Below, piece by piece: positions 267 to 29,360 of a stretch of 57,740 nt of DNA. A program made the position numbers and the translations under genes. Each line of letters starts with the position of its first letter. Position 1 is the first letter of the stretch. The notes below the pieces were generated by a model. It saw only the letters and a program-made list of their open reading frames with translations, was not told the DNA's origin and ran no database searches. The stretch is from positions 1 to 57,740 of the forward strand of contig JAFSVD010000014.1 of the NCBI GenBank assembly GCA_017450275.1, given 5' to 3'. This DNA comes from Desulfovibrio sp. (GTDB taxonomy: Bacteria > Desulfobacterota > Desulfovibrionia > Desulfovibrionales > Desulfovibrionaceae).

Positions 267-1247
267 CTAAAAATGCCCGATTGACCCAATATGCTTGTGC
301 AGCTCCTGGAGCATCATAAGTGGAATCGTCGATTCCCAGTGATTTGTCGCCCGTGCCCAAGCGTAGCAAAGGAACAAAAAGAGCAGACTTGCTGCAAGAT
401 GCCACGTTTGCGGATGAGGGATACGGACGCCCAAAGCGGTCAATGACAGACTCGATACCTTGCATACCCGCACACATTCCAGACACCCCGTGCATTCAGG
501 GACATTGACCCGTGTAAGCCTTGTAATCGCAATCCTTTGCGGACAAAGCTCCTCACACGCCTTACAGTCCACGCAGCGTACGGGTGAGCGTTGGATCGCA
601 ACAGGCGAGAGGAGTGCAATGAGCCCCTGCAGCGCCCCATACGGACAAAACGATCGGCACCACAGCGATGGAAAAAAAAGACTCCCAAGCGCAAGCAGGC
701 ACAGGCAAAGAAGGACATTACTCCCTGGATGCTGAAAGAACAGGAGCATCTTAGTGTCACAGACCAGGTTGTAGGGAGAGAAAAGAAAGGCCTCAATAGC
801 CGCCCCATCCATGGTCACAAGCAAGGAGGCAAAAAAGGCGAGCAGAAGGTATTTGGGCAGACACAAAATACGCTCAATCCAGCGGGGAAGCGGGTGGACG
901 AGCCCCAAGCGCAGACCAAGCCCAAACAGCACCTCCTCCAAAAAACCGATCGGGCACACGGTGCTACAAAAACTTCGTCGCAGCAAAAAGGCTGAAACAA
1001 TCACAAAGCAAAAGAGCACGAGCCCTGCCGGATGCACAGGATCCCATGCTCCGCTTAGCAGCAAGCGTTTTGCGGCAAGAAGGGCACTGATCGGTAAAAA
1101 GCCCTCAACAGAAGGCGGTTTTGGCACAAAGGACAAGGAATTCCCTGAGATAAAGGCCACGTACTGGGCAAAACGAATCCCTATCCAGCAGCAAAAGAGA
1201 CAAAACAGTCCCTGCACAATCCTGCGTTTGGAAAAAAACGCCTTCAC
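267..1247 (-). CDS. NapH-type membrane polyferredoxin (4Fe-4S binding)
   Basis: A 326-residue membrane iron-sulfur protein. It has several hydrophobic segments and four cysteine clusters: CSTVCPIG (C94, C98) and CRSFCPYG (C197, C201) at membrane faces, then two classical 4Fe-4S motifs, CVDCKACEELCP (C225-C235) and CTGCLECVRVC (C252-C262). This is the layout of the NapH/NosR/CcoG-like polyferredoxins that pass electrons across or along the inner membrane; its partner is unknown here. The start overlaps the stop of the upstream sulfatase-like gene by 4 nt (ATGA), so it is the last gene of the capsule operon. No oxidoreductase that would use it lies nearby, which makes the placement odd. The family call is firm; the biological role is open. 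Confidence 0.85.
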   Translation of the reverse strand: MKAFFSKRRIVQGLFCLFCCWIGIRFAQYVAFISGNSLSFVPKPPSVEGFLPISALLAAKRLLLSGAWDPVHPAGLVLFCFVIVSAFLLRRSFCSTVCPIGFLEEVLFGLGLRLGLVHPLPRWIERILCLPKYLLLAFFASLLVTMDGAAIEAFLFSPYNLVCDTKMLLFFQHPGSNVLLCLCLLALGSLFFPSLWCRSFCPYGALQGLIALLSPVAIQRSPVRCVDCKACEELCPQRIAITRLTRVNVPECTGCLECVRVCKVSSLSLTALGVRIPHPQTWHLAASLLFLFLCYAWARATNHWESTIPLMMLQELHKHIGSIGHF

Positions 1248-2761
1248 ATATCCTCCGATATACCTTCGTTCGCCATGGCATCAAGCAGTATCCCCCCTAA
1301 ATTGGCAGGGGCGATGACGCCTTGTTTGCTTCGAAATACCTCTGCCCCCCAAAGCAGACAGGGGGTGTGGGTGGCATTGCTGGGAATAAGACTTGGGATA
1401 TTGGGTAAATGATCGCCATAGAGCGCAAGAAGGAGCTTTTTGGGGTAGGAAGTGCGAAGAGTTGCCAGCATGGAATCTGTGTGCATGGTGTGAAGAAGGT
1501 AGGGACCAATGGGGGCAGGAATATGGGCAAGCAAAGGGTGGGAGAAAGTGAGCCTTGCCGCATCCCAAGGCCCATGATTTTCCATGGTGATCACAAAACA
1601 AAAGAGGGGTTTCTCGCCTACCCATTGACAGAGAAGCGTGGCAAGGAAGGTATCGCTGACATAGGGGCCAAAATACACAGGATCCACAAGATCCTCCAAG
1701 GCCACAAAGCGGTCAAAGCCCAGATGGGGGATGGCGCGGTCGCGATAAAAAAAGCTTTTTGCGTAGGGATGCAACAAGACAGTGGTATAGCCCAAACACT
1801 TCAAATACCAGGCTATCGACCACGAAGGTCTTTTGGCCACCCGCCAATAGGGATGAAAGGCGTCTGTGCCAAGATCCTGGGGGGGAATGCCTGTCAGCAC
1901 CTCGTATTCGGTGCGCATGGTATAGGCACCATAGGCATGCACGCCAAAATCGAGAAGCGCCCCCTCCTTGCTCATCGCATCAAAGGTGGCAAGATAGTTT
2001 TCTGGCAAAGACTGGGCATCGTTTGGCGCAAGATAGACTCTTGGGTCGCAAAAGGATTCTGCCTGAATCACAACAATATCGGGCTTGCTCACATACCTGT
2101 GCTTCCGCCACCCTTTCCCCCAAAGCGGCTCTGCAAAGGGCTGATCGCAGGATCCCCGAATACCAGAAAGACCCTGCATCCCCACATGCCAAAGCCCATG
2201 CCAAAAAACACAGGCCAAAGGCCCTATCGTGGCAAGATCCTGGGTGCTGAGTGTAAGCGGAATCATTTCCTTGGCAAAACGCAAAACCACTCTGCCAAGC
2301 TTTGTTTTGGCCACGACAAAACAAAGCCCAAGGAAAAAGAGCGGCACAAGATCAAAGCAGGAGCGTGCGGGATATTCAAGATTTGCCAGAAGCCAAAAGA
2401 GAGGCAGCGCCAAAAAAAGCCCTGCAAGCATCGCTTTCCAGGGCAAAAAAGGGAGATAGAGCTTTGGATGCTCAACCACCTGACGAAGTAAGGTGACATC
2501 GGCAAAGGTTAAGGATTCCCCACGCAGGGCACGCTCCTTGGCCACATTGCAAAAGCCAAGCCCCGCAAAACACAAAACCGTGGCAAAAGCGCTCACGAGG
2601 GCGCGGCCACAGATCGCGTGGATGAGCCCAAAGACAAGAAGACCAAAAAAAAGGGCAAAACCATCACACATCCACCCCCGAGTACGGACACAATGCCGCT
2701 GCACGCAAAGCACAGCCAAAGGGGTGAGCACATACATCCACAAATCCAACACACTCATCAC
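1244..2761 (-). CDS. LTA-synthase-like membrane sulfatase/phosphoglycerol transferase family protein
   Basis: A 505-residue protein. It has an N-terminal block of about five membrane segments (residues 5-195), followed by an extracytoplasmic alkaline-phosphatase-superfamily domain. Visible active-site blocks are VVIQAES (about 231-236), TEYEVLTG (about 284-291, with candidate nucleophile Thr281 just before), ENHGPW (394) and YGDHLPN (448). These match the LtaS/MdoB/OpgB class, which transfers phosphoglycerol or phosphoethanolamine or hydrolyses such esters. Rhizobial rkp capsule loci also contain a membrane protein at this place (recalled, not checked). It starts inside the acetyltransferase stop (4-nt overlap). 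It probably modifies the capsule or its anchor at the outer face of the inner membrane; the substrate is not deducible. Confidence 0.85.
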   Translation of the reverse strand: MMSVLDLWMYVLTPLAVLCVQRHCVRTRGWMCDGFALFFGLLVFGLIHAICGRALVSAFATVLCFAGLGFCNVAKERALRGESLTFADVTLLRQVVEHPKLYLPFLPWKAMLAGLFLALPLFWLLANLEYPARSCFDLVPLFFLGLCFVVAKTKLGRVVLRFAKEMIPLTLSTQDLATIGPLACVFWHGLWHVGMQGLSGIRGSCDQPFAEPLWGKGWRKHRYVSKPDIVVIQAESFCDPRVYLAPNDAQSLPENYLATFDAMSKEGALLDFGVHAYGAYTMRTEYEVLTGIPPQDLGTDAFHPYWRVAKRPSWSIAWYLKCLGYTTVLLHPYAKSFFYRDRAIPHLGFDRFVALEDLVDPVYFGPYVSDTFLATLLCQWVGEKPLFCFVITMENHGPWDAARLTFSHPLLAHIPAPIGPYLLHTMHTDSMLATLRTSYPKKLLLALYGDHLPNIPSLIPSNATHTPCLLWGAEVFRSKQGVIAPANLGGILLDAMANEGISEDM

Positions 2762-3348
2762 ACAAGGAGCCGTTCGTAGAGATCAGCCCCTCCCTCCAAG
2801 GATTCAGGCACTTGAACAGATCGCACTGTGGTGAACCCGTGTTTGGCATAAAAAGCCAAGGCACGGCTGTTGTCGCGCCAGGCAAGGAGAGAGAGCTTGG
2901 TTAAGCCACTTTCTTTGGCAAAAAAGGCGGCATAGTCGAGCAAAACATCAGCCAAGCCCTGCCCCCGAACGCTTGGATCCACCCAAATGGTGTTGATATA
3001 GAGGCTCTCCGGAACAACGGCTGTGACGATATCGGTATAGGAGGTTAAGCGTGCTGCTGGCAGCATCACCCGCATCAAGGGAGGAATTGTCTGAGCGCTG
3101 GCTGGATAGCAAAAAAGCAGAGCCAAAATGCTCGCCCCCTGCTCCGTCAGCACGCAATTTTTGTAGGAATACTGGGATGAGGCATCGCGCAACACCATGC
3201 TCAAAATGGCCTCAGCATCGAGGCCTGGCAAAACGCCCTCCAAAAGCCCGTCCACCACCCCGTGGGACACTTCGCGGACACACTTGGCCAAAAACGGCGC
3301 ATCGTCTGCTGTTGCTTGCCGATACGATGGTTGTATAAACGCTTTCAT
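2758..3348 (-). CDS. GNAT-family N-acetyltransferase
   Basis: A 196-residue single-domain protein of the Gcn5-related acetyltransferase fold. The acetyl-CoA binding signature lies near residues 134-142 (VDPSVRGQGLA, the R/Q-x-x-G-x-G/A pattern), followed by the LSLLAW strand and the typical C-terminal NSRALAFYAKHGF segment (about residues 164-176). The N-terminal third (IRQAT-like opening and acidic helix) also fits. Both ends overlap neighbours by 4 nt, so it is translationally coupled between kpsS and the LTA-synthase-like gene. It may acetylate an amino sugar or an amino group of the lipid anchor, but GNATs in such loci can act on many substrates. Function is assigned at family level only. 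Confidence 0.85.
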   Translation of the reverse strand: MKAFIQPSYRQATADDAPFLAKCVREVSHGVVDGLLEGVLPGLDAEAILSMVLRDASSQYSYKNCVLTEQGASILALLFCYPASAQTIPPLMRVMLPAARLTSYTDIVTAVVPESLYINTIWVDPSVRGQGLADVLLDYAAFFAKESGLTKLSLLAWRDNSRALAFYAKHGFTTVRSVQVPESLEGGADLYERLLV

Positions 3349-4592
3349 ACTTCTTCCGTAAAAATCCCCATCCGATGCAGCGAGGCGTCTATGGCGCAGG
3401 CAATCCCCTGCTTCGAATAAAAATTCCCAGGCACTAAGGCATCGTGGGTGAGCACGGTGATAAAATCCTTCACAAGCGTGGGATTTGGCGGAATGGGATT
3501 ATTCCAAAAATCCGCAAGAGGCATTGTGTTGGCATCCACCGCAAGGCCTGGCATGACATAGATGGACTGGCCAAGACAATAGAGGGCTTTCCCCCGTTGC
3601 AGGGCAGTGAGACCAAGGGTGCTGTTGCACAAGACAACCGCCTTGCAACGATCCAAAATCAAGGCGTTGTTGACCGACTCCACAAAGACCAAACGCTCTT
3701 CGATGCCTAAAGCCTTCCCGAGCGAGGCGACAAAGCGCGCATACGGTAACAAGCCATTGTCCAAGGGATGATTTTTAATGAGTAAAACACTTGTTTTGGG
3801 GGCATAGGTGGCAAAATTGACAATCACCTGCCCCAACAGATCCAGAATCCCTGAATAGGGGGAATGAATGCGTATCTGCGAATCGCTGTCGAGCTGGAGC
3901 GGAAAAAAATAGACGGGGTTGTTTTGTCGAAGAAGAGCACGAAAACGCGCCAAGGATTCCTTGCGCCTGCGCACGCGGGAAACATAGCGGGGGATGAGAC
4001 CGAAGAGTTCACGGCCGATACAATAGGGTCTGTGGGTCTTGTAGCGGAAAAAAAACGGCCACAAGAAAAAATTCCCCACATGATGCCAAATGGTATCAAG
4101 AACCCGGCCTTCGATGGGATTGGGGGCAGTGGAGGGAGGAATGCGTTTGGGATACTGTTTGGCTTTGGCTTCTATCTCGGCAGGATCCTTAGACAAATGG
4201 CTTCTGGCATTGACCCCATTGTTTTCCAAGGTGACATAGCCAGGCCGCACATAGCCTTCTTCATAGACCCACACCGTGATACCAAGCGATTGCGCGATAA
4301 GCACCGCTTCCCGATGCATGGGACGCCAATCGCCAAGCAAAACAAGATCAGTAATGCAATAGCGATGAAAAATCGTGCCAATATAGGCTGGCCACTCAGA
4401 TACCCCTCCCTGAAAGGGGAGTGCGGAAGGACTCGGCCAAAAAAGGACATCGCCGCCACACAATTGGACGCGCCACACCCCATAGCCTAAGGATCGAAGC
4501 CTTTGCCCAAGGCGGTAGAAAAAAAAGCTCAATGGCCCTTGGAGAAAAAGAAAATTCCGACTCACGGCATTATCCGGCTGCACGCTTGGCAT
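3345..4592 (-). CDS. capsule polysaccharide biosynthesis/export protein KpsS-like (beta-Kdo transferase)
   Basis: About 415 residues if started at the ATG at 4592; a GTG at 4565, five bases past the upstream stop, is an alternative. The family hallmark EEGYVRPG is at about residue 111, followed by TLENNGVNA. Further on come KNHPLDNG and LCNSTLGLTAL, as in KpsS/LipB and rhizobial RkpJ. KpsS adds the first beta-linked Kdo to the lipid acceptor of group 2 capsules, and KpsC then extends it; it acts in the cytoplasm at the inner membrane. It overlaps the oxoamine synthase by about 23 nt. A longer frame to 4706 exists but its extra N-terminus is Arg/Ser-rich and lies wholly inside the upstream gene, so I reject it. 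Confidence 0.85.
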   Translation of the reverse strand: MPSVQPDNAVSRNFLFLQGPLSFFFYRLGQRLRSLGYGVWRVQLCGGDVLFWPSPSALPFQGGVSEWPAYIGTIFHRYCITDLVLLGDWRPMHREAVLIAQSLGITVWVYEEGYVRPGYVTLENNGVNARSHLSKDPAEIEAKAKQYPKRIPPSTAPNPIEGRVLDTIWHHVGNFFLWPFFFRYKTHRPYCIGRELFGLIPRYVSRVRRRKESLARFRALLRQNNPVYFFPLQLDSDSQIRIHSPYSGILDLLGQVIVNFATYAPKTSVLLIKNHPLDNGLLPYARFVASLGKALGIEERLVFVESVNNALILDRCKAVVLCNSTLGLTALQRGKALYCLGQSIYVMPGLAVDANTMPLADFWNNPIPPNPTLVKDFITVLTHDALVPGNFYSKQGIACAIDASLHRMGIFTEEV

Positions 4593-5913
4593 TCGCTCTG
4601 GCACGGGGCAAAAGCTTGGCGCACGTTGCGATGGCCTCTTTGATCTGGAGATCTGTGTGCCTGGCACTGACAAAGAACCTGAGCCGTGCCCGCCCCTCCT
4701 GGACACCGGGATAGATGATGGGCAGGGTGAGAATCCCCTCTTCTTTCAACATCGCTGCCAAAAGCACGCATGTCACAGAATCCCCAACCAAAATAGGGAT
4801 CACGGCATAGCCATCGGCTTTGCCCGTATCCAGACCTGCCTCATGGGCTAAGCTCAGCATTGTCTGGCTTTTTTCCTGAATGGCTGCAACTCTCCAAGGC
4901 TCCTTCTCCATGCAGTCTAAGGCGCAGAGAGAGGCACAAGCCAGCAAGGGTGGCATGCCAACACTATAGACAAAGCCCGGTGCCTCGTAGCGCAAAATAT
5001 CGATCAGGGCTTTTGTTCCCGCAATATAGCCCCCGCAGCCGCACAGCGTCTTGCTCAAGGTGCCCATCCAGATATCGACGCGCTCCTTGTGAATGCCAAA
5101 ATGCTCGCCAACGCCATGCCCGTATTTGCCAACAGTGCCCAGAGAATGGGCTTCGTCGACCATCAAAAAACAGGCGTATTGCTCTTTGAGTTCCAAAAGA
5201 CGAGGAAGATTGGTGATCACCCCGTCCATCCCAAAAAGGCCTTCAGTGACAATCATGGCACGCTGAAAGGAGGCACGATGGGTGCGCAGTGACTGCTCTA
5301 AGGCATCACAATCGTTGTTGGGATAGGAAAAACGCGCAGCCTGGGAAAGAGCTGCCCCCATAATCAAAGAATTATGAGAGGCCTGATCGTAGAAAATAAC
5401 ATCGCGGGAACCCATCACCGAGGCAATGGTTGAAACATTGGTGCCGTGCCCACTGACAAAGCACAGACAATCTTCGGTTCCGTAGATGGCTGCCAAGGCC
5501 TCTTCCAAGGCTCTGTGGGGTGGCCGTTCTCCTGCTGTGAGTCTGCTCGCCGAGGCAGATACCCCATAGCGCGCAAGGGCATCTTGAACCGCCTGCATGA
5601 TACGGGGATCGCCGTTTAGCCCCAAATAATCATAACAGGAAAAATTCACATACGCCCGACCGTTGATATGCGCCACTTCCTGGGACAGGCCGTCGTGGCA
5701 TATATAATAGGGTTCTTCAATCCCCAACTTTTTGCACACCGCTTTTTCCACCTGCACCTGGGTGTATTGGGGCAATGTGGCAAAATTGGTGAGATCGGGC
5801 GAATACTGGGGGGTCACATCGCGGCGTGGCTCCGGTTTGGCTCCACGCATAGACTGGAGCAGTCGTTCTCTCTCTTCCGCTCGCATCCCAAAAAGGTGTT
5901 TTTTTTCCGTCAT
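4570..5913 (-). CDS. PLP-dependent alpha-oxoamine synthase (RkpG/KBL/BioF-like)
   Basis: A 447-residue fold-type I PLP enzyme that decarboxylatively condenses an amino acid with an acyl thioester. Visible are DQASHNSL (His180, stacks on PLP), VDEAHS (about 252-257) and MGTLSKTL with the Schiff-base Lys288. BioF and Kbl are about 390-400 residues. Here a roughly 60-residue N-terminal extension precedes the core, as in serine palmitoyltransferase-like and RkpG members. Context (PKS upstream, KpsS downstream) argues for synthesis of a capsule lipid anchor rather than biotin or threonine metabolism. The intergenic leader carries no clear Shine-Dalgarno; an in-frame ATG at 5886 is an alternative start. 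It is separated from the PKS by a 2.7-kb AT-rich island. Confidence 0.85.
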   Translation of the reverse strand: MTEKKHLFGMRAEERERLLQSMRGAKPEPRRDVTPQYSPDLTNFATLPQYTQVQVEKAVCKKLGIEEPYYICHDGLSQEVAHINGRAYVNFSCYDYLGLNGDPRIMQAVQDALARYGVSASASRLTAGERPPHRALEEALAAIYGTEDCLCFVSGHGTNVSTIASVMGSRDVIFYDQASHNSLIMGAALSQAARFSYPNNDCDALEQSLRTHRASFQRAMIVTEGLFGMDGVITNLPRLLELKEQYACFLMVDEAHSLGTVGKYGHGVGEHFGIHKERVDIWMGTLSKTLCGCGGYIAGTKALIDILRYEAPGFVYSVGMPPLLACASLCALDCMEKEPWRVAAIQEKSQTMLSLAHEAGLDTGKADGYAVIPILVGDSVTCVLLAAMLKEEGILTLPIIYPGVQEGRARLRFFVSARHTDLQIKEAIATCAKLLPRARANAKRAAG

Positions 5914-6479
5914 ACATTATTTAGCGGGGGAACCCACCCACAGGGCTTGCCTGTGGGAGAAACCGCAACCCTCCGTTCTGATAGAATATTATTATATTGT
6001 TTATTTTCAACAACCTGCTAAATTACTGATACGCGTTCCATCTCATAATCTACCATCCATATTGCCAGAGGAACGCCAATAAAAGAACAAAATACTATTT
6101 GCTATTACAAAAATCTTTGTCAAATAGAAAAAAAATCTAACAACACATAATATCTGATCATTTTTTGTGCATACTTTTACTCATTATGTCTTTATTATTA
6201 CCTTCCAAGGGGGTACCTCGAAGTTCAGCTTGTTTGCCATATCTCAAAAATTGACCTTTTACACACATCGTAAGCTTGGCTGTTTCGGGCTATTATCTCA
6301 ATCTATTTTTATTGTTGCCGAGCTGATAATCAAGGCTATTGGAGGAGATTAGTATCTTTTCAGAAATTGGTTCCCCACCCCATGGATGTGCAAGCCATAG
6401 AGACTGTGAGATTCTGGAAAAACAGTGGAATTGTAATAAATCTTAAAGAGTAATACAAAAAGAACATTTTTGAGAAAAA
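5914..6479. other. AT-rich non-coding stretch with hairpin and family-2 repeat
   Basis: No convincing gene is present. A short plus-strand reading frame at 6167-6352 (61 codons) has no ribosome binding site or recognisable motif. A compact hairpin with 8-bp arms (5937-5944/5950-5957, CCCACAGG/CCTGTGGG) sits 24 nt upstream of the oxoamine synthase start. It resembles the hairpins found at ends of IS200/IS605-type elements, and a similar one is at 8611-8628. A family-2 repeat copy is at about 6360-6410. From about 6430 the sequence is the 3' flank of the duplicated Rpn-like genes. The stretch is much richer in A+T than the flanking capsule genes. Confidence 0.5.
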
Positions 6480-6904
6480 CTATTTTGTAAGAGTATCTTT
6501 AAGTTCTTGAATACGTTCAAGAGACAGCTGTGTTAATTCCTGAATTTTGTCGAAAGTCATACCAGAACGAAGCATATTACAAGTAACAAATTCTATACCA
6601 ATTTTAAACCCTTTCCTATACCCGACTTCGTAACCTTTCCTATATCCGACTTCGTAACCTTTCCTATATCCGAGTTCGTAATTTTCATCAAAACGAGCCT
6701 GAAGAGCGTCATCCATATTCCATTCAAGTGTCAGCATACTGAAAACATCCTCGGAGTGTTCAACAAGATAATTATTGATTGAAGGCATTGAAACAAGTTC
6801 AAGAGATGTTGAATCATTGTCAAAGACATCAGAGAGTCACATTGTTCTTTACAAGGGCTCTTTTTTGTCAGTGTCGTACAGAAAAAATTTAGGAGGAGGA
6901 ATTG
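6480..6904 (-). pseudogene. decayed Rpn/PD-(D/E)XK transposase-family copy 1
   Basis: Reading on the minus strand from 6904, the sequence follows the intact gene at 7313-8164 from its PKFF segment through KEPLxRTMxLSD, with two in-frame stops. It then jumps from SLELV directly to NYLVEHSE, deleting about 60 codons. The remaining open frame (from an ATG at 6788, 102 codons) is the C-terminal domain. This copy also carries a three-fold 24-nt repeat encoding GYRKGYEV that the other copies lack. It is probably non-functional, although the C-terminal fragment could still be translated. It was generated by tandem duplication followed by internal deletion. Confidence 0.75.
6610..6681 (-). repeat. 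three tandem 24-nt units (GYRKGYEV coding)
   Basis: Three consecutive 24-nt units (6610-6633, 6634-6657, 6658-6681) differ at only one or two positions each. On the minus strand they encode repeated Tyr-Arg-Lys-Gly-Tyr-Glu-Val-Gly. Such Gly/Tyr/Glu repeats near the C-terminus are common in Rpn-like recombination-promoting proteins, and their copy number can change by slippage. The corresponding place in the intact gene has only FDEGFDEG. Confidence 0.85.
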
Positions 6905-6950
6905 TAATACATCTCGAAAAGTAATATCAGAAGAATATCTTTAAAAAAAG

Positions 6951-7266
6951 TTATTTTGTAAGAGTATTTTTAATATCTTGAATATGCTCAAAGGACAATT
7001 GGGTTAATTCCTGAATTTTGTCGAAAGTCATACCAGAACGAAGCATATTACGAACAACAGAGTCCATGGCAACGTCATGCCCTTCATCAAAACGAGCCTG
7101 AAGAGCGTCATCCATATTCCATTCAAGTGTCAGCATATTGAAAACCTCCTCGGAGTGCTCAACAAGGTAGCTCCCCATAATACCGTGTTCAATACAGAGT
7201 CACATTGTTCTTTGCAAGGGCTCCTTTTTGTCACTGTCGTACAGAAAAAAATTTAGGAGGAGGAAT
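6951..7266 (-). pseudogene. decayed Rpn/PD-(D/E)XK transposase-family copy 2
   Basis: From 7266 leftwards the minus strand matches the intact neighbour from PKFF through YxxDxKEPLQRTM, then a stop. It then fuses directly to CIEHGIMG and continues through NYLVEHSEEVF to the same C-terminus. About 90 middle codons are missing, and there is a 2-nt deletion after the PKFF codons. The left-over frame (ATG at 7178, 75 codons) is a short C-terminal peptide. The DNA between this copy and the next (7267-7312) is a close copy of 6907-6950, so the 3' flank was duplicated along with the gene end. Confidence 0.75.
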
Positions 7267-7312
7267 TGTAACACATTTCGAAAAGTAATATCAAAAGAAT
7301 ATTTTTAAAAAA

Positions 7313-8164
7313 TTATTTTACAAGAGTATTTTTAAGGTCTTGAATCCGCTCAAAGGACAATTGAGTTAATTCCTGAATTTTGTCGAAAGTCATACCAGAA
7401 CGAAGCATATTACGAGCAACAGAGTCCATGGCAAGGTTATGCCCTTCATCAAAACCCTCATCAAAACGAGCCTGAAGAGCGTCATCCATATTCCATTCAA
7501 GTGTCAGCATATTGAAAACCTCCTCGGAGTGCTCAACAAGGTAGTTCCCCATAATACCGTGTTCAATACAAAATGTAACGGTACGAGTGATAGCCTCACG
7601 ACGCGACAGTCCAGCCCTTATGCCCTCTTTAACTCTGCCGACGAGCGTAGCGTAATCGAAAAGATACGGGCATTTTTGTAACAAAGGCTGGGGCAGTCCG
7701 TAGTTAATATTGAAGGCATTGACAACAAGTTCAAGAGATGTTGAATCATTATCAAAAGCATCAGAGAGACGCATTGTTCTTTGCAAGGGTTCCTTTTCGT
7801 CGCCGTTGTACAGAACAAAAAATTTAGGAGAAGGAAATTTAATTAATCTTTTGTAATAGAGCCTATTCTTATCTTTAATCATATTGTTTAAAAGTTCGGT
7901 AATATAGGACAAGCAGCGAAATGGCATATTTTCATTTACTGTTGATTGATGTTCAATAAGAACCAAAAAATGATCATCGATAGTGCAAGAAATGTCGTTC
8001 TTCTGTTTGTCGAAGAAAATTCCATTAAGGGTATTAATGTTGAGTTTATTTGGATCAATGTATTGAGTATCAAGAACAGCGTTACAGAGGGAAAGAAGCC
8101 TTGTAGGTTCATTGAAGTAAGATCTGAAGACTGAATCGCGATATTGTGTGTTATAATCTGCCAT
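7313..8164 (-). CDS. Rpn family recombination-promoting nuclease / PD-(D/E)XK nuclease family transposase
   Basis: A 283-residue protein. The N-terminal opening (RDSVFRSYF) and the catalytic block IDDHFLVLIEHQS (D and E-x-Q of the PD-(D/E)XK fold, about residues 62-74) followed by MPFRCLSYITELL are typical of the Rpn/YhgA-like transposase-related nucleases. The C-terminal part is the variable tail: Gly/Asp/Glu repeat, then LRSGMTFDKIQELTQLS. Known relatives promote RecA-independent recombination and contract or expand their own C-terminal repeats; some are anti-phage effectors. The ATG at 8164 has only a weak ribosome binding site. Base composition is far more A+T-rich than the flanking capsule genes, so recent acquisition is likely. 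Two truncated relatives lie just downstream. Confidence 0.85.
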   Translation of the reverse strand: MADYNTQYRDSVFRSYFNEPTRLLSLCNAVLDTQYIDPNKLNINTLNGIFFDKQKNDISCTIDDHFLVLIEHQSTVNENMPFRCLSYITELLNNMIKDKNRLYYKRLIKFPSPKFFVLYNGDEKEPLQRTMRLSDAFDNDSTSLELVVNAFNINYGLPQPLLQKCPYLFDYATLVGRVKEGIRAGLSRREAITRTVTFCIEHGIMGNYLVEHSEEVFNMLTLEWNMDDALQARFDEGFDEGHNLAMDSVARNMLRSGMTFDKIQELTQLSFERIQDLKNTLVK

Positions 8165-15863: not shown

Positions 15864-15938
15864 AGGACATCCTGAAGGAAGGCGACCAAAAGACCTTGAT
15901 TCACGTATTGGCACAAAAAACAAGAGTACGAAAAAAGT

Positions 15939-18194
15939 CTATCTCTTTGACCGCGCTTTTGCAAGACAGTCCACAAAGAGCCGACAATCCACAGCCATGC
16001 GCATCGTCCAATCGTAGTAGCGAGGATACACAACCAAGACACCAGCCACCAAGGCATCGAGGGTGAGGCGCTTTTCTCTCCTTGGGAAGGAGAGCCGATC
16101 ACGCGTGAGTCCCCAGCCCGCATAAAAAGGGCCTCCGTAGGTGACCACAGGTATCCCCCGAAGGAGTGCCTCAAAACCCGTGAGCGAGGTTAAGGTATGC
16201 ACCTCATTGCACAGGGGCAAAACCATTTCAATGGGGCTTGTTCTCACCACCCCGTCGGCCAAGGCTGCGAGCGCCTTCTTGGGTACAGCTCCTGCTCTAT
16301 TGCCGCTCACCACATCGGGATGTTCCTTATAGAGGATATAGCAGGAGGGATTGCTCTTGCGGACGTGTTCCAAAAGCGCCTGATTGGAAAAAATCCCCTC
16401 ACCGCCCAAACGAACCGAGGCATCGTCTTCCACCTGCCCTGGCACAAGAAGGATGGGACGATCCTTGGGAAGGATGGGCAGATCAAGGGCTCCGCTCACA
16501 TTGTACTTGCTGATGCCCTTGGCAACGAGATTGCTGCGCAAATGCTTGGCTATTTCGAGTTCTTCGGCTGTGCGCTCTTCCAAAAGAATGCGCTCAAGCT
16601 GACTCTGGCTCTTGGGATCGTAGTAGATACCAGTGCTATCGAGCACCAACGAGCCTGGCTGGTTGAAGTTGGAACCAAGACCAACGGATCGCACAAAGCC
16701 ATCTTCCATGCGCAACAAGGGCACCTGGGCTTCTTCGGCCAAATCAGGCAGATCCGCAGGCAGCTTGGAGGCCCACACAACGAGATTGCCTCGATGCGCC
16801 TTGGCCTGGGAAAGCGCTTGGCTTGGATCGGTGAAAAAGGCCACTTCCGAATGGGTGCCCTGTAAAAAGGCTTTCGCATGGATCTCTTTCCAACGGGAAA
16901 AGCCCAAACAGGCATGGTAGCCGGCGTTTTCTTTGTCGATACGACGCTGCAGCACAAGGAGCTTGATACACGACTCAATCTGCGCCCGTTCCCCAACACT
17001 CAGGCAATAGCGGGTGTAGTGGGCATAGGCCGCCCAGAAAAGATCGAGAAGCGTGCGCGATCGTATGCGCCTCGGATTCTGGATATGATCCTGTGTCAGT
17101 CCCCAACCCGCATAAAAGGGCATGCCAAAGGTGTGCACCTCTTTGCCCAAAAACAGGGCTTCAAAGCCCATCTGGGAGGTGACGGTATAGACCACATCCA
17201 TCTGGGCAAGAAGAGAAAGAGGGGCGCAGTCACAGGCCAAAAGCGTCACGCCATTCGGGAGATTCTGCCTGTCAAAATGCCCTTCTTTTTTCCCGCCCAA
17301 GACATCGGGATGCACTTTAATGAAAATTTCCGCGTTGGGATACCTCGTTAAGGCATCCGTGAGCATGGCCTGGAAGGTCTCAGCACTCGCTAGCCCCAAG
17401 TGTATGCTCATATCGCCCTTGGTCTGGTCGATCAAGAGAATACGCTGTTTTGTGCTTTCAGGCAGCTTGGGTGCCTCATTGGCATGGTTATACTTGCTCA
17501 AGGAGTGGGTCACGATGGCAGAAAGAGCCGCCTTGGCTCGCTCTGGATCCTCGACTTCCCAGGAAGAATTCAAGAGATTTTCCAAATCCGAAGGATTTCT
17601 CGCGTCGTAGTATATGCCTGTGTGGTCAACAACCAAGGACAAAGGCAGGGCGCCGTGCACCCCAAGGTCGAGGGAGCGCAAAAAACCGTCTTCAACGCGG
17701 ACAAGCCCTATGCCATGGTTCTTGGCAAAGGAAAGCGCAAAGCCGCGGGCATAGCGGAGGCGCTCGTGGGCAAGCATAAGCCCATACGCTCGGCAAATGG
17801 CGAGCAAACGCACAAGAAGACCAGAACTGCCCTGCGTCCTCTCAAGGGATTGCCGATACAAGACAGCCATGGGGATGGGGGCTTCCTCTTCCTTGACCCC
17901 CCACACCAAGACCCCGATGCAGGTGCCTGAAAGTTCCACCAACAGATGTGCCAAGAGATTAGGGGGCATAAAGAGGATCTTCCGCTCAACAATATCCTCG
18001 AGTGTCGGAATACGCTTCATGCCTTTGGCAAAACAAATATACCACGGTTCCTTGGGCAAAAGAAAAAAGGCGAAAACCCATCTGGGAACTCTTGGGAGAA
18101 GAGCCGCGAGTTTTCGCCTGGCAATCCACAAAACCGATCGAAAAATACGACTGAGCAAACGCACACTACGTCCAAAGTGGTATGAGTACCACAC
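15939..18194 (-). CDS. capsule beta-Kdo transferase KpsC (two-domain)
   Basis: 751 residues with an internal duplication. The block EDGFLRSLDLG at about 168 and EDGFVRSVGLG at about 497 is each followed by a D-x-TGIYYD signature. FYAGWGLT occurs at about 360 and again near the C-terminus. This tandem pair of glycosyltransferase domains is diagnostic of KpsC/LipA, which lengthens the short beta-Kdo linker that KpsS starts on the capsule lipid. It is cytoplasmic and membrane-associated. The start used overlaps the KpsD-like gene by 29 nt. The first 58 residues are basic and hydrophobic and may be extra; the ATG at 18020 (MKRIPTLED) is a plausible alternative. About 75 nt separate its stop from the PKS start. 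Confidence 0.92.
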   Translation of the reverse strand: MWYSYHFGRSVRLLSRIFRSVLWIARRKLAALLPRVPRWVFAFFLLPKEPWYICFAKGMKRIPTLEDIVERKILFMPPNLLAHLLVELSGTCIGVLVWGVKEEEAPIPMAVLYRQSLERTQGSSGLLVRLLAICRAYGLMLAHERLRYARGFALSFAKNHGIGLVRVEDGFLRSLDLGVHGALPLSLVVDHTGIYYDARNPSDLENLLNSSWEVEDPERAKAALSAIVTHSLSKYNHANEAPKLPESTKQRILLIDQTKGDMSIHLGLASAETFQAMLTDALTRYPNAEIFIKVHPDVLGGKKEGHFDRQNLPNGVTLLACDCAPLSLLAQMDVVYTVTSQMGFEALFLGKEVHTFGMPFYAGWGLTQDHIQNPRRIRSRTLLDLFWAAYAHYTRYCLSVGERAQIESCIKLLVLQRRIDKENAGYHACLGFSRWKEIHAKAFLQGTHSEVAFFTDPSQALSQAKAHRGNLVVWASKLPADLPDLAEEAQVPLLRMEDGFVRSVGLGSNFNQPGSLVLDSTGIYYDPKSQSQLERILLEERTAEELEIAKHLRSNLVAKGISKYNVSGALDLPILPKDRPILLVPGQVEDDASVRLGGEGIFSNQALLEHVRKSNPSCYILYKEHPDVVSGNRAGAVPKKALAALADGVVRTSPIEMVLPLCNEVHTLTSLTGFEALLRGIPVVTYGGPFYAGWGLTRDRLSFPRREKRLTLDALVAGVLVVYPRYYDWTMRMAVDCRLFVDCLAKARSKR

Positions 18195-20010
18195 CGGCAG
18201 AAACAGCCAGCTGGTAGATTATCTGTACAATATCCTTGATCGACTGCACAACTTTTGAATCGTACATGGGCATGACCATGATCTGATCCCCAGGTGCTAT
18301 GCCAAGCGCTGCCACAGAGCCGATTTCGCCATTGGGTTTCATGACAAGCACAGAGCCTGTGTCCGCCCTGTCGGTAAAGCCTCCGGCCTTGGCCACATAG
18401 TCTTTGAGCTTCATGCTGGCGTCAAAGACAACAGCCTTGGGAATGGCAACCTCGCCCACCACCTGAATCACATCCGATTTGTGAGGGATATAGACCACAT
18501 CACCGTCTTCCAAGATGGGATCCTTGATAACCCCCTTGTGGGCAACAACCACAACCCCGTCTGGTTCAATCATGGAGGCGCGCTTGACAAAATCCTGCAC
18601 AAGGGTTGCTTCCTGCACGCGGATTTTTGCCTCATCCACCGATTGCGACCGAGCGGTGAGCACCGATTTTTCCAAGTTCCTGAGAGCATCGTCAATGGCT
18701 TTTTTTTGCTGCATGGCCACCGATCGACGCTTGATATAGAGGGCTCCGCAGTTGGCGGTCTTGGGATCAACCCCGATATAGTAGAGCAGGGATTTCAGCG
18801 TCACCCCCTTGCGAACCGCATACCGGGATGCTCCGGCAATGGCACCGGCGCAGCCAACCAAGATGGTTGAGCCCGGTCTATCCGCATGGAATTCCACAAT
18901 ATCTTCATCGCGCACCGAAAACTTCGCAAAGTCTTCCACCGTCATATAGGTGTTGAAGCGAGCGCGATTGCGCGTTCCCTGCACGCTCACATGGGTGGCT
19001 CCGGGCTGCGGTGTCACCATGCCAAGGAGATTTTTGCCCAATTGCGCTGCGCCCTGTCTGAATTCATAGCGCCCCTGCTGGCGGACAAGACCAAGCGCTG
19101 CCACACCAGCCCCGCGTTTCCCAACCACAATCACATCCCCATCTTGCAAATGCACCTGCGGAAGATTGCCGTTGGTGATGAAATCGTAGAGATCGACGTT
19201 GGCGATGGTGCGATTGGCGCGTTTGACGAGAATGTTCCGGTAGCTGCCGGCCTCAGCAACAATGCCGCCCGCCCGATCGAGAAAATACAAGATCGAATCG
19301 CCAGGGCCGCCCGCATAATGGCCAGGTCGAACCACATTGCCTGTCACAAAGACAGCCAAGGGCTGGCTCGAGAGCAAATCAACATAGGCCTCCACGTTTT
19401 GCGTAAAGACTTCGGTGATCTGCTGATCCACCGCCCGCTGCAAGCCAGCATTGGTCACCCCTTCGACGCTGATGGGGCCGACCTCTGGGATAAAGATATT
19501 GCCCTGATGGTCAACCACCACGACCCCGTCAAAAGACACCGCTCCCCACAAACGCACCATAATCCGATCGCCTGGCTGGATCGTATAGCCTGGATGGATG
19601 CCGCTCTGCCAGGTGCCGGCAAAGTTGCCCAAGAAAAGATCCGCGCCAAAGGGTTTGAGGGTCTCCACAAGATCCTGCGGATAGCTTGTCTGCGCCCAGG
19701 CAGGCGGAGCCTCAAGCGGGGAAGCCTTTTTAACAGGTCCTGGGATCGCCGCCTGAGGGCGCGAGCTGGGACGCTGTTGCATCATGATGTCGTTGCGGGT
19801 GAGGGGCTTGGGTCTGTCTTTAGCCGGATAGACCCTGTCGGGATTAACCCGTTGCTCTGCCTGGATGGACTGGTTTTCTTGTGCCATCACGCCTCTGCCC
19901 AAAGCCTCGAGTCGAGCTTGCTTTGTGGCGGTATCAACCGCGTAGGCTGGGTTTGCCCACATAAGCGCAAAAAGCACGAGACAAGGAAAGACCGATAGGA
20001 GCATTCGCAT
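18166..20010 (-). CDS. polysaccharide export protein, KpsD/Wza-like
   Basis: 614 residues with an N-terminal signal peptide (residues 1-24, ending NPAYA). After a Pro/Arg-rich spacer comes the polysaccharide-export domain, with QPGDRIMVRLWG and VGPISVEGV (about 150-200). SLBB-like segments follow (VTGNVVRPGHY, then DGDVIVVGKRG, and later VVGEVAIPKAV with AGGFTDRADTG). The length is close to E. coli KpsD (about 558) rather than Wza (about 379), and the architecture suits ABC-transporter-dependent capsules. The mature protein would be periplasmic/outer-membrane and form the exit path with the KpsE-like inner-membrane protein encoded 3 nt upstream. The C-terminal tail contains a hydrophobic stretch (AGVVLIPLW). 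Confidence 0.9.
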   Translation of the reverse strand: MRMLLSVFPCLVLFALMWANPAYAVDTATKQARLEALGRGVMAQENQSIQAEQRVNPDRVYPAKDRPKPLTRNDIMMQQRPSSRPQAAIPGPVKKASPLEAPPAWAQTSYPQDLVETLKPFGADLFLGNFAGTWQSGIHPGYTIQPGDRIMVRLWGAVSFDGVVVVDHQGNIFIPEVGPISVEGVTNAGLQRAVDQQITEVFTQNVEAYVDLLSSQPLAVFVTGNVVRPGHYAGGPGDSILYFLDRAGGIVAEAGSYRNILVKRANRTIANVDLYDFITNGNLPQVHLQDGDVIVVGKRGAGVAALGLVRQQGRYEFRQGAAQLGKNLLGMVTPQPGATHVSVQGTRNRARFNTYMTVEDFAKFSVRDEDIVEFHADRPGSTILVGCAGAIAGASRYAVRKGVTLKSLLYYIGVDPKTANCGALYIKRRSVAMQQKKAIDDALRNLEKSVLTARSQSVDEAKIRVQEATLVQDFVKRASMIEPDGVVVVAHKGVIKDPILEDGDVVYIPHKSDVIQVVGEVAIPKAVVFDASMKLKDYVAKAGGFTDRADTGSVLVMKPNGEIGSVAALGIAPGDQIMVMPMYDSKVVQSIKDIVQIIYQLAVSAGVVLIPLWT

Positions 20011-20013
20011 CGT

Positions 20014-22443
20014 TTAAAACCCCGCGTGTTCACGCACTGCCGCAATGATTAAGGAGGTAAGCCCCAAGAGCAGAAGGGCTGTGATCATATAAATGCACGC
20101 AAAGAGCAATGGCCTGGGATAGAGCGACTCGTCCGCCAACGTTGGCCGCTGGAAGGCCTCAATATACTGGGTCTGCGAATCCGCACGAACTCTGGCAGCC
20201 TCAAGCGATGCCATGGCTGAGGTCAATTGCTTTTGCGCAAACTGCTCTTCCAGAGCCAAATTCTGGAATCCGCTTAATAAATCGTTGAGCGACTTGTCGT
20301 CCTTGATCTTGCCGGCAAGCCTGAGCTTTTCGCTGGCCAGCTGCTTTTCCAAAACCTTCAGACGGTTTTCGAGCTGCCGAACTCGTGGGCTCCCCTCCTT
20401 CATAAAGGTTCGCGCCTCGGAGAGTTCGGACGAAGTCTGGGTCACCTCGGCCTCAAGCTTGTTGACCAAGGCGTAGAGACCGGTTGCCACAGCCTCGGGA
20501 TCCAAGATGACGGTCTTCTCCCGATAGGTGTGCATGGCCTCCCTGGCACGCACAATCCGCTGTTCAGCCCTGCGTACTTCTAGTTCCGCCTGCTTGATCG
20601 CGTCCTGCCGGGCACGGGTGTTCATGGCATTGACAAGGTCTTCGCTCAACGCCAGCAAGCCTTCACAGACAGCCAGCGCTTTTTGCGGGGTGAAGGCCTT
20701 CACCCGCACATCCAAAATGCTTGTATCCGGATCATACCCCACCTCGCACGCCCATTCCCAAAAATCTTTGATCTCCTCGTTGCTCGCCTTTTTCTTCAGA
20801 CGATACCAAGGGTCGAGCTTCGAATCCGCATAATGGTCGCGCAAATGGAGCTTTTCATCGAGTTTGAGAAACATATCCAGGGATTGGATATAGTTCAGCA
20901 CAATATAGGAATCGTTTTGCGTATTGGAGGGCAGGCTGAATATTGTGCTCAGCCCCTCCAGGGGGTGGGAGCCGTTTTGCCCCCTGACAGCAAAACGCGC
21001 TTCGGAGATATAGGCCTGGGAGGCAAAGAGAAGGAGGTAGAAAAAGATACAAATCCCTGGCAACAGCACAAAGAGCATGATAAGGCGCCTGGCCAGGCTC
21101 TTTTTCCACAGCTGCCGTTCAACGCCTGAGACCAGATTATGCCAGGTGTTTGGGGCTGGCATGTGGAGGGTGTATTCAGGGATGGGCTCTAACGCCCCTG
21201 AAGGCGGGAGCGCCACAGCCTTGGCCTCGGTTTGGGGGAGTGCCACGGCCTTTTTGCCAGCCAATTGCACGGCATTTTTGGGCGCTGCTTTGGGCGGATT
21301 TTTCGGGGGATCGGGCTTTTTGGGGGCTGGTTTTGCCGGCACCTTGGGTTCGTCCCACTCAAAATCCTCGAAGGGAGCCACCTCAACATCGCGCACATGG
21401 AGCACATCGGCAACCGTAAAGGCTTCGGGAATACGCCCTTCTTCGGTGAGCCCCACCTCGACCTCACCAGAACCGGAACCGGCATAGAGCAAAAAATGTT
21501 CAAGCGCGCTGATGTGCTCTTGCTTGAGCATCCGGGCAATGGATTCAGCATCCCAGGGCGCGCCGTTGTTGGTTTTGCCAGCCGTGTTCATGGCTGTGGC
21601 CTTGGCCTGGAGATAGCTGACCGTGTCGAATTCGTTGGAGGGGTTAATCCCCTCTAAGGTGCCCTGCTCCCGATAATGCACCCAGGGATTGATATGGTCT
21701 TTTTGGAATTTCTTATAAATTTCTGACGCGTAGAAAAAAATGTTTTGCCGAATTTGTTCTTCGGTTAAGCCACCTTTTTTGGGATCCTGAAAATCGTGGA
21801 TGGCTTTAAACTGCAAATAGCAGCCAATCGAGAAATAATCCTTGGGGTTGCGGCGCTGGTATTTGTTCTCCTGATTGTCCTGCTCCTCGTCCACAGCGTC
21901 GGTGACGCGCACCGAAAAATCCGCGTCCGTGAGTTCAGGGACGCGTTCTGCAGGTGGCACGACAAATTCTTCGGGAATATCGCCTTGCGGGGTCAATCCA
22001 TGGGCAACCTCGCCAGGCCCTTTGCCGGCAAAGCGCACAAAATGTTCGAGCGCGCTGATGGAAAGCTTGCGGAAAAAGGCGCCCAGTCGCAAGGCATCCC
22101 AAGGTCCCTCTTCCTGCATAATCCCTGCGGCGTTGAGAGCCTGGGCTTTGGCTTCAAGATATTTGTGGGTGCAAAAGGCGTTGGAAGGGTTCAACAACTC
22201 CATGGTGCCATAGAGGCGGTAGTGTTCCCAGGCATCCAGGCCTGCTTGGGCGAAACCAGAATGAATTTTGGCCGCATAGGTGACAATGTTTGCCCGGATT
22301 TCCTCCTCAGACAGACCACCGTGTTCTGGTGCTGCATAGTATTGCAGCGCCTTGCTGCAGCAGTATTGTTTCGCATCAAAAAAAATGCTCAGGAAGCGTT
22401 CCTGAACCTTGGCAGAGGCGGATTTCTTGGTTGGATTTGCCAT
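20014..22443 (-). CDS. KpsE/Wzz-like capsule export protein with duplicated N-terminal module
   Basis: About 809 residues from the ATG at 22443; an upstream in-frame ATG at 22500 would overlap the lipoprotein gene. The C-terminal 364 residues are a classical KpsE/BexC: TM helix (about 453-474), periplasmic region with ISEARFAVRG, long coiled coil (about 610-770), second TM (about 782-803). The first 345 residues are unusual. They are two copies (about 20-160 and 202-345) of a module with conserved W-x-HYR-x-x-GT-x-E-x-(I/L)NPSN-x-F, then YL-x-AKA, ISALEHF and GEV. This is reminiscent of the repeats in large RTX-type secreted proteins. A Pro/Ala/Lys-rich linker joins it to TM1. By topology the modules should be cytoplasmic. 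KpsE bridges the ABC transporter and KpsD. Confidence 0.88.
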   Translation of the reverse strand: MANPTKKSASAKVQERFLSIFFDAKQYCCSKALQYYAAPEHGGLSEEEIRANIVTYAAKIHSGFAQAGLDAWEHYRLYGTMELLNPSNAFCTHKYLEAKAQALNAAGIMQEEGPWDALRLGAFFRKLSISALEHFVRFAGKGPGEVAHGLTPQGDIPEEFVVPPAERVPELTDADFSVRVTDAVDEEQDNQENKYQRRNPKDYFSIGCYLQFKAIHDFQDPKKGGLTEEQIRQNIFFYASEIYKKFQKDHINPWVHYREQGTLEGINPSNEFDTVSYLQAKATAMNTAGKTNNGAPWDAESIARMLKQEHISALEHFLLYAGSGSGEVEVGLTEEGRIPEAFTVADVLHVRDVEVAPFEDFEWDEPKVPAKPAPKKPDPPKNPPKAAPKNAVQLAGKKAVALPQTEAKAVALPPSGALEPIPEYTLHMPAPNTWHNLVSGVERQLWKKSLARRLIMLFVLLPGICIFFYLLLFASQAYISEARFAVRGQNGSHPLEGLSTIFSLPSNTQNDSYIVLNYIQSLDMFLKLDEKLHLRDHYADSKLDPWYRLKKKASNEEIKDFWEWACEVGYDPDTSILDVRVKAFTPQKALAVCEGLLALSEDLVNAMNTRARQDAIKQAELEVRRAEQRIVRAREAMHTYREKTVILDPEAVATGLYALVNKLEAEVTQTSSELSEARTFMKEGSPRVRQLENRLKVLEKQLASEKLRLAGKIKDDKSLNDLLSGFQNLALEEQFAQKQLTSAMASLEAARVRADSQTQYIEAFQRPTLADESLYPRPLLFACIYMITALLLLGLTSLIIAAVREHAGF

Positions 22444-22483
22444 GCTCTTGTGCGTAATCCTTGCTGTTAAAGCCTCATTCGAC

Positions 22484-22846
22484 TCACAGGGAGCCATCAC
22501 CGGTTATATCGGGCGCAAGAATCCATCCCTTTTCCGGATCCTTGCAGGCTGCAATGCGCGAACGCGAAGAGCCCTGGATACGTGCTTCCCGACACTCCAT
22601 ATTGAGTGCCGAATAATAGCTTCCGCCCACAGTGACAAGCCCTGTGCCGTAGTGGGTTCCGGAAAAGTGCTGGCTGGCTCCTTCAGGCGCCTGCCCGATA
22701 AACTGCGCGATCTGGCTCTCAAGCGGTGTTTGGACAATGCTTTCCTGAGGGACTACGTGTTCTTTGGGCTTGTGGGCGCATGCCCCAAGGCAGAGGAAAG
22801 AAAGGAACACGGCAACGATGGGGAAAAACAGGTGGCGAACTCGCAT
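22484..22846 (-). CDS. small lipoprotein of the capsule operon
   Basis: About 120 residues from the ATG at 22846. It has a basic n-region (MRVRH), a hydrophobic core and the lipobox CLGAC near residues 21-25, so it is probably a lipid-modified periplasmic or outer-membrane protein. The mature part ends in a small domain with GSYYSALNMECREARI, resembling the tail seen in 17-kDa-surface-antigen-like lipoproteins (GxxYxSAxxxxCRE). This is resemblance by eye only. It is the first gene of the capsule operon and ends about 40 nt before the KpsE-like start. It may be an accessory factor for the export channel; the function is unknown. A longer frame to 22981 would place the signal peptide internally and is rejected. 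Confidence 0.7.
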   Translation of the reverse strand: MRVRHLFFPIVAVFLSFLCLGACAHKPKEHVVPQESIVQTPLESQIAQFIGQAPEGASQHFSGTHYGTGLVTVGGSYYSALNMECREARIQGSSRSRIAACKDPEKGWILAPDITGDGSL

Positions 22847-29347: not shown

Positions 29348-29360
29348 CGGGAGGCTTTTG

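Follow-up and report, generated by a model that had tools for sequence, protein, structure and literature searches.

The window analysed here is a stretch of 57,740 nucleotides from Desulfovibrio sp., probably a sulfate reducer (NCBI GenBank assembly GCA_017450275.1, contig JAFSVD010000014.1; contig C58, the assembly being 74% complete). Between 22500 and 267 its minus strand encodes a single series of nine genes, interrupted by an AT-rich insert. According to Pfam and NCBIfam scans this operon combines the capsule proteins KpsE, KpsD, KpsC and KpsS with an iterative type I polyketide synthase (PKS), an α-oxoamine synthase (AOS), a GNAT acyltransferase and two membrane proteins. An earlier note on this DNA had described this gene set on one strand and had likened the PKS-AOS pair within the KpsC/S/D/E operon to RkpA and RkpG, and both descriptions hold: the locus belongs to the rkp/wcb kind, with variations of its own. 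With somewhat better than even confidence we infer that its capsule is anchored on a sphingoid base made by the PKS and the AOS, which would bear a phosphoglycerol head set on it by an LtaS-like enzyme and, on top, the 3-deoxy-D-manno-octulosonic acid (Kdo) residues added by KpsS and KpsC. What is new would be a specific and testable proposal for the anchor, put together from the observed gene content, protein families, synteny and co-occurrence and from the chemistry of a homologous system.

The LtaS-like protein and the lipid-forming enzymes

The protein on which the proposal turns is encoded at 1244..2761 (minus strand) and consists of membrane helices followed by a PF00884 domain (1.4e-22). 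The earlier note had rightly seen a membrane enzyme in it and had overlooked its phosphoglycerol-transferase kind, the strongest clue to the chemistry. Taken alone, the window protein matches GacH in the PDB (1.4e-6). A profile of 11 family members matches GacH (5e-39), LtaP (5e-19) and LtaS (1e-13) and, further down, the uncharacterised protein VP1736 (6e-8) and an arylsulfatase (5e-4), and a profile of 25 members, 24 of which come from the contig loci described below, again matches GacH (2e-32), LtaP (1e-16) and LtaS (~2e-10); EptA is not among the matches listed for either profile. Residues invariant in both member sets include Glu235, Thr281, Arg340, His396 and Asp450-His451, at positions corresponding to the metal, nucleophile and substrate residues of LtaS. 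The enzyme is thus predicted to be of the LtaS/GacH-like phosphoglycerol-transferase kind. We rejected a sulfatase because phosphoglycerol transferases rank first and arylsulfatase reaches no better than 5e-4 and 1.4e-3, and a phosphoethanolamine transferase because EptA is unlisted in these profiles and unmatched by a profile of 24 members (E 1.7).

The latter profile, built from the contig members with both the window and S. meliloti left out, finds the window protein at 3.8e-82 and the protein at the RkpI position of S. meliloti at 2.2e-63, the values for OpgB and EptA being E 0.14 and the 1.7 just given. In the S. meliloti rkp-1 locus this PF00884 protein is encoded in an unannotated gap at the place expected for rkpI (L056:16331-17869), and RkpI of S. 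fredii is described as a transmembrane protein of capsule biosynthesis/export (PMC9952627). Capsule-locus records of Pseudomonas, Paraburkholderia and Caballeronia already annotate the PF00884 gene as lipoteichoic acid (LTA) synthase family. GacH, LtaP and LtaS have the PF00884 domain, with Glu235, Thr281, His396 and Asp450-His451, in common with the window enzyme, but differ from its family in genome context. A second LtaS-like gene was seen in genome G190 (G190:C48:74089-75666, L248), whose capsule locus, on C168, has the beginning of another such gene at its contig end.

The PKS (8649..15923, minus strand) is of the RkpA/WcbR/SgaA type with the domain order KS-AT-DH-pseudoMT-ER-KR-ACP, as read from Pfam domains and motifs. 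Aligned with nine homologues it retains the inspected KS, AT, KR, ER and ACP motifs; its AT carries GHSVGE and YAFH, a malonyl-type pattern, and its DH-ER interval looks like a methyltransferase remnant, with no Pfam match. It is 51-52% identical to the enzymes of two same-genus loci and 32-36% identical to the other seven, which come from Sinorhizobium, Shinella, Pseudomonas, Paraburkholderia, Caballeronia and two relatives of the same order (32% to the S. meliloti PKS, 35% to the Pseudomonas homologue). The PKS would be expected to yield a saturated acyl chain without branches, the length of which is not readable from sequence. A PKS cluster of the sponge-type swf kind was rejected, as the partner genes (R+ST, radical SAM) are absent from the operon and as the KS motif of the window is HGTGT and not the HATGT reported for swf (PMC3908369).

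The AOS (4570..5913, minus strand; PF00155) is of the RkpG/SgaB type. Its best NCBIfam model is bioF, with 351 bits against a model cut-off of 426 bits, and its best match among solved structures is serine palmitoyltransferase (8e-64). In a tree of 82 sequences it falls within a set of 64 rows delimited by a branch with an SH-aLRT value of 99; 59 of these rows are labelled PKS-linked, by our own choice of rows and with planctomycete and cyanobacterial rows included that mostly lack Kps neighbours in the stretch, and five belong to a second AOS type of the window's genus. The other side of that branch holds E. coli BioF, Kbl, eight controls (six beside Kbl and two, L158 and L162, on the serine palmitoyltransferase side) and eight alphaproteobacterial serine palmitoyltransferases. 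The groups separate again in a second tree to which the E. coli BL21(DE3) serine palmitoyltransferase was added and from which nine rows were removed, E. coli BioF among them, with Kbl kept. Both trees are quick ones, midpoint-rooted for drawing and with long branches flagged, BioF standing on a very long one in the first. The rows nearest to the window AOS are three same-genus capsule loci, and a Desulfomicrobium locus pairs with a same-order genome, which makes Desulfovibrionales the probable order, though on the weak ground of a gene tree. We rejected BioF or Kbl as the identity of the window AOS, given that the enzyme falls with PKS-linked AOS, apart also from classical serine palmitoyltransferases; the grouping with BioF or Kbl that the earlier note had named as contrary to its view appears in neither tree.

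The window AOS is likewise not the second AOS of the same genome (G000:C50), which lacks a PKS and lies in a polysaccharide-type cluster. This second type (G000:C50:41020-42162; L036:8976-10442), the context of which was checked in five loci, is accompanied by an XrtA-system amidotransferase-like gene (under cut-off) and by OEP, HlyD and flippase-like genes, and adjoins a gene for a protein of 1047 amino acids that has a PKS-like acyltransferase domain and no KS match. All 38 same-genus genomes listed contain an AOS that scores comparably to it.

KpsC, the poly-β-Kdo transferase (15939..18194; PF05159, 4.5e-82 in three stretches), and KpsS, the first β-Kdo transferase (3345..4706; PF05159 2.4e-62; NF050054 1.6e-59, under cut-off), are encoded on the same strand, and the true start of KpsS is probably nearer 4580, the listed open reading frame (ORF) overlapping the AOS. 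The GNAT (2758..3348, minus strand; PF00583, 3e-12) is a candidate N-acylating enzyme and may acylate the amine. Three four-base overlaps, as in coupled genes, join the genes for KpsS, the GNAT, the PF00884 protein and a NapH-like protein.

Synteny and co-occurrence across capsule loci

Three same-genus loci share the gene order KpsC-PKS-AOS-KpsS-GNAT-PF00884, L039 up to the end of its contig, and because of this recurrence the association of the operon genes is far above chance. For wider comparison we used hidden Markov models seeded from the window, L037-L040, L044, L052 and L056-L060, loci that match by construction; no seed was taken from the 80 contig loci, from the Pseudomonas genomes or from the controls. 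Short-chain dehydrogenase/reductase (SDR) matches below 150 bits and SDR frames longer than 600 residues were excluded. Seven plasmid loci were hand-picked from 258 records and six of them counted, the cyanobacterial L062 (PKS, no Kps or LTA gene) being omitted.

At the level of the order, the stretch examined around PKS-AOS loci contains Kps genes in 15/15, the PF00884 gene in 11/15, a GNAT in 11/15 and an SDR in 8/15. In counting at this level, G055 and G067 entered by their Kps neighbours, with no PKS domain match on their short contigs, and G022 and G140 were placed outside the PKS class, as they have no PKS or Kps gene beside the AOS. The PF00884 gene lies farther along the same contig in G163, G166 and G021 and on another contig in G061. 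The contig loci, the top 80 of 591 that were confirmed, are skewed to Pseudomonas-like AOS. Among these 80, 58 have a PKS or a piece of one, 47 combine a PKS or piece with a Kps or PF00884 gene, and 30 have the PF00884 gene; where at least 8.5 kb is present on both sides (47 loci), 45 have a PKS and 39 a PKS together with Kps or PF00884 genes. A Kps gene lies in the stretch in 11 of the 30 PF00884-bearing loci. The other 19, mostly from halomonads and Burkholderiaceae, have no Kps gene in the stretch (KpsT uncounted), and all 19 genomes encode a PF05159 protein whose gene, by contig coordinates, overlaps the edge of the stretch or lies within ~1.1 kb of it. In the control loci, PKS, PF00884 and Kps genes (KpsT-like ones aside) occur in 0/20 of a weaker AOS class, of which one, L144, spans 4.1 kb, and in 0/5 of the second AOS type; KpsT-like ATPases occur in 8/20 of the former.

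PKS-AOS pairs with Kps genes were found in Pseudomonas, Bordetella, Burkholderiaceae, Nitrosomonas, halomonads and Desulfovibrionales-like genomes. The rhizobial framing of the earlier note, apt in that the locus is rkp-like, is too narrow, such loci being widespread outside rhizobia, and the relation of wcb to rkp has been published before (PMC3908369). Sinorhizobium rkp-1 (rkpU, rkpA, rkpG, rkpH, rkpI, rkpJ) resembles the window in its PKS, its AOS, the PF00884 enzyme at the RkpI position and a PF05159 protein at the RkpJ position. It differs in that S. meliloti has an SDR at the RkpH position, while the window has no SDR and instead a GNAT, KpsC/D/E in the same operon and the NapH-like protein. 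Burkholderia wcb and Nitrosomonas rkp are like the window in combining a WcbR-kind type I PKS with capsule genes (PMC3908369). The Burkholderiaceae loci read LTA-PKS-LpxC-AOS, most with a GNAT and with PF05159 adjoining the stretch, and differ from the window in the LpxC-like deacetylase, which was not found there. Just ahead of the AOS, this deacetylase gene was seen in 12 Burkholderiales loci (L058, L060, L088, L094, L096, L098, L109, L110, L117, L118, L122, L131), 10 of which have a GNAT after it. The E. coli group 2 capsule (kps) shares with the window the set KpsE, KpsD, KpsC and KpsS, and its anchor is phosphatidylglycerol-based (PMC11041684). Examined as a control, the group 2 locus of E. 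coli BL21(DE3) gave KpsF, E, D, C, S, M and T, a weak SDR match and no PKS, AOS, GNAT or PF00884 match.

The LtaS-like gene follows the AOS also across whole genomes. Of 348 Pseudomonas genomes searched (all congeneric with one P. putida genome; up to four candidates were scored in each), 17 have the AOS, at 76-81% identity, 18 the LtaS-like gene and 17 both. An eighteenth AOS genome, G244, has a 44% match only and no LtaS-like gene, and in G358 the LtaS-like gene, with one stop, lies beside PKS, KpsC, SDR and KpsS, with no AOS match. Among 199 genomes of the order, LtaS-like genes above 370 bits, a line set after the scores were seen, occur in 22 of the 23 with a PKS-type AOS (the exception is G179) and in none of the 176 without one, where three weak matches of 98-200 bits were found. 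Fisher's tests of co-occurrence, in which the three weak matches were counted, give p-values of 1e-26 and 5e-25, and these ignore shared descent and linkage.

These distributions bear on a different explanation, namely that the capsule has an ordinary phosphatidylglycerol-type anchor and that the PKS-AOS pair makes a separate, free sphingolipid which travels with the capsule genes. The window encodes KpsS and KpsC just as the E. coli locus does, and the PKS-AOS pair does occur apart from capsule genes: of 15 Pseudomonas loci (17 were fetched, and L229, with the 44% AOS, and L231, at a contig end, were excluded), 11 have KpsC, GNAT, LTA, SDR and KpsS beside the AOS and two have part of the set, and in the remaining two (G206, G517) PKS-AOS stands alone; likewise, six of the 47 long-flanked contig loci, within the best 80 of 591, have a PKS and no Kps or PF00884 gene in the stretch. 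Moreover, the sphingolipids of Pseudomonas fluorescens MYb115 were obtained from cell extracts and are called secondary metabolites with an effect on the host (PMC12134224). Then again, the KpsC-GNAT-LTA-SDR-KpsS set persists elsewhere in both of these Pseudomonas genomes, Kps-family genes lie in or next to the stretch in 30/30 PF00884-bearing contig loci, and rkp-1 is credited with the lipid carrier for the K-antigen in Sinorhizobium (PMC4881576, PMC3557214). We consider a free sphingolipid unlikely, if deserving of attention.

A phosphoglycerol sphingoid base as candidate anchor

In MYb115, SgaA and SgaB, like the corresponding window proteins a monomodular PKS followed by an AOS, yield C24, C26 and C28 sphinganines; SgaB condenses L-serine almost exclusively, and three further lipids, heavier by 154 Da, are assigned by mass as phosphoglycerol sphingolipids (PMC12134224). 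The cluster is unlike the window in that it is reported as a sphingolipid cluster and includes an SDR, SgaC, none being present in the window operon. In the available text of that report no head-group enzyme is named, and its main text has 0 matches for 'capsul'. The locus tags of SgaB (RS19800) and SgaC (RS19775) show the same five-tag spacing as the AOS and SDR of Pseudomonas TMW 2.1634, whose intervening genes encode PhyH, KpsC, a GNAT and an LTA-synthase-like protein. By this equal spacing the MYb115 cluster would be a capsule locus and its LtaS-like gene would encode the enzyme for the phosphoglycerol head.

The anchor of the E. coli capsule is the lyso form of phosphatidylglycerol. As KpsS adds the first Kdo to a phosphatidylglycerol lipid in known ABC-type capsules (PMC12220298, PMC11041684), a phosphoglycerol sphingoid base would present it with the same head. 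The available text of PMC4881576 and PMC3557214 names no lipid structure for rkp-1, and none of the open-access titles and abstract openings searched joins a capsule with PKS-derived sphingolipids.

In the pathway that we propose, the iterative PKS would build a saturated long-chain acyl-ACP from malonyl units, and the AOS would release the chain by decarboxylative condensation, most likely with L-serine, to a 3-keto sphingoid base. An SDR would reduce the ketone in many relatives; in the window a general housekeeping SDR may do so, or the anchor may stay a keto-amine. The LtaS/GacH-like enzyme of the RkpI family would put phosphoglycerol on the free C1 hydroxyl, giving a look-alike of lyso-phosphatidylglycerol, and the GNAT may acylate the amine. 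KpsS and KpsC would add β-Kdo to the glycerol, and the polymer would be built and exported by KpsMTED. We draw the first two steps and the head group from the homologous system, whose products were measured; acylation and the Kdo, polymer and export steps on a sphingoid lipid are what we infer beyond it. The anchor would probably unite a sphingoid tail with a phosphoglycerol head as in E. coli. The view of the earlier note that it is distinct from the E. coli anchor would accordingly stand for the tail and probably fall for the head, in line with the phosphoglycerol-transferase kind of the PF00884 protein, and its amino-ketone or amino-alcohol-type anchor may fit a keto-amine, no dedicated SDR having been found, but leaves out the phosphoglycerol that is probably present.

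No SDR was found in the operon of the window, of L037 or of L038, and the contig of L039 ends too early to tell. We rejected a dedicated SDR elsewhere in the genome, as searches of G000, G062, G158 and G190 gave remote matches only (best 26-34% identity over ~190 residues). A clade without SDR would suit an amino-ketone or 1-deoxy sphingoid anchor derived from alanine or glycine, which would have no phosphoglycerol head, the LtaS-like enzyme decorating the polymer or another glycolipid, and so would the best NCBIfam score of the window AOS, to bioF and under cut-off. Such an anchor would not readily explain why the LtaS-like gene tracks the PKS-AOS pair over many capsule loci, and SgaB of MYb115 strongly favours L-serine, with phosphoglycerol species seen (PMC12134224). 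We regard it as distinctly unlikely.

Besides the PKS-AOS loci without capsule genes and the limits of the co-occurrence figures given above, several points weigh against the phosphoglycerol sphingoid anchor. The clade of the window is without the dedicated SDR (RkpH/SgaC), its AOS is 44% identical to the Pseudomonas homologue, and no GNAT lies in the examined stretch of S. meliloti rkp-1. The gene content of the MYb115 cluster is deduced from locus-tag spacing. LtaS and EptA work on the outer side of the cytoplasmic membrane, whereas KpsS is thought to act on its cytoplasmic side, so that the phosphoglycerol step would call for either a flip or an enzyme in inverted orientation. Across 35 members of the PF00884 family, some of them cut or over-long at the N-terminus, there are on average five hydrophobic segments, and the mean K+R is higher in loops 1 and 3 (2.7 and 3.9) than in loops 2 and 4 (1.0 and 0.8). 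By this charge pattern the catalytic domain would sit inside, which fits an inverted enzyme and weakly suggests an orientation opposite to that of GacH, LtaP and LtaS; the method is rough, placing the EptA control right and OpgB on the wrong side with three helices found, and we take the inverted orientation as a lead only. Furthermore, the levels of the phosphoglycerol lipids in MYb115 did not go up with sphinganine (PMC12134224). Finally, as related planctomycete and cyanobacterial AOS mostly lack Kps and PF00884 genes, a PKS-type AOS alone need not mean a capsule. These relatives (planctomycete loci L114, L123, L132 and L134; cyanobacterial loci L121, L126, L136 and L139) have no PF00884 match and, save for a KpsT-like one in L136, no Kps match in the stretch, and perhaps serve other uses.

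The proposed phosphoglycerol sphingoid anchor joins rkp-1 genetics, PKS-derived phosphoglycerol sphingolipids and LtaS-like enzymes, and would yield a concrete structure and a function for RkpI. More tentatively, and a little short of even confidence, we suggest that the rkp/wcb capsule lipid is a phosphoglycerol sphingoid base whose tail comes from the PKS and the AOS and whose head, required by KpsS, is supplied on the cytoplasmic face by the RkpI family as a re-oriented branch of the LtaS superfamily. If this were true, the host-active sphingolipids of MYb115 would be precursors of a capsule anchor, and sphingolipids made with a PKS would be commonly used as capsule lipids among Proteobacteria. 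It would also explain how a single KpsS/KpsC machinery works with two kinds of lipid tail, add to the sphingolipid producers many bacteria not regarded as such, bear on capsule antigens purified with their lipid, and answer the old question of the lipid of rhizobial-type capsules.

The AT-rich insert and other features of the window

The PKS and AOS genes, which adjoin in relatives, are parted in the window by ~2.7 kb with a GC content of 30-39%, as compared to 50-59% in the rest of the operon. This AT-rich insert (approximately 5950..8500, minus strand) consists of one full Rpn-family gene (7313-8164; PF04754 1.6e-5; TIGR01784 2.2e-9, the latter under cut-off) and two partial repeats of the 3' part of this gene. 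It might be read as a sign of decay, in which the insert uncouples the PKS from the AOS and the organism makes no lipid. KpsM and KpsT were not found within the window, their candidates lying unlinked to it (KpsT-like on contig C25, 53%; KpsM-like on contig C61, 33%), and no AcpS turned up in the assembly, which is 74% complete. However, both genes flanking the insert are unbroken, the capsule ORFs have their full length, the PKS retains its catalytic motifs and AcpS is present in three near-complete relatives, all of which makes decay very unlikely.

At the far end of the operon the NapH-like membrane 4Fe-4S protein (267..1247, minus strand; PF12801; TIGR02163 under cut-off) might act as a redox partner in the absence of the SDR. 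Its gene closes the capsule operon in the window and in L037 (L037:5451-6458, 53% identity); it was not found in the same-genus locus L038, and the contig of L039 stops before that position. At the other end lie the genes for a KpsD-like outer-membrane export protein (18166..20010, minus strand; Poly_export and SLBB domains) and a KpsE-like polysaccharide co-polymerase (20014..22500, minus strand), which matches TIGR01010 (BexC/CtrB/KpsE) over residues 471-825 (1.9e-78, under the curated cut-off). The latter has an N-terminal extension of ~470 residues with a visible internal duplication; within residues 1-470, for which the Pfam scan gave no match, there are two repeats of ~150 residues with HYR..G...P...F motifs. 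Elsewhere in the window, a gene for a DotI/IcmL type IVB secretion inner-membrane component (30694-31362; PF11393) lies between two that encode large proteins (29358-30704 and 31372-34419), neither of which has a Pfam match.

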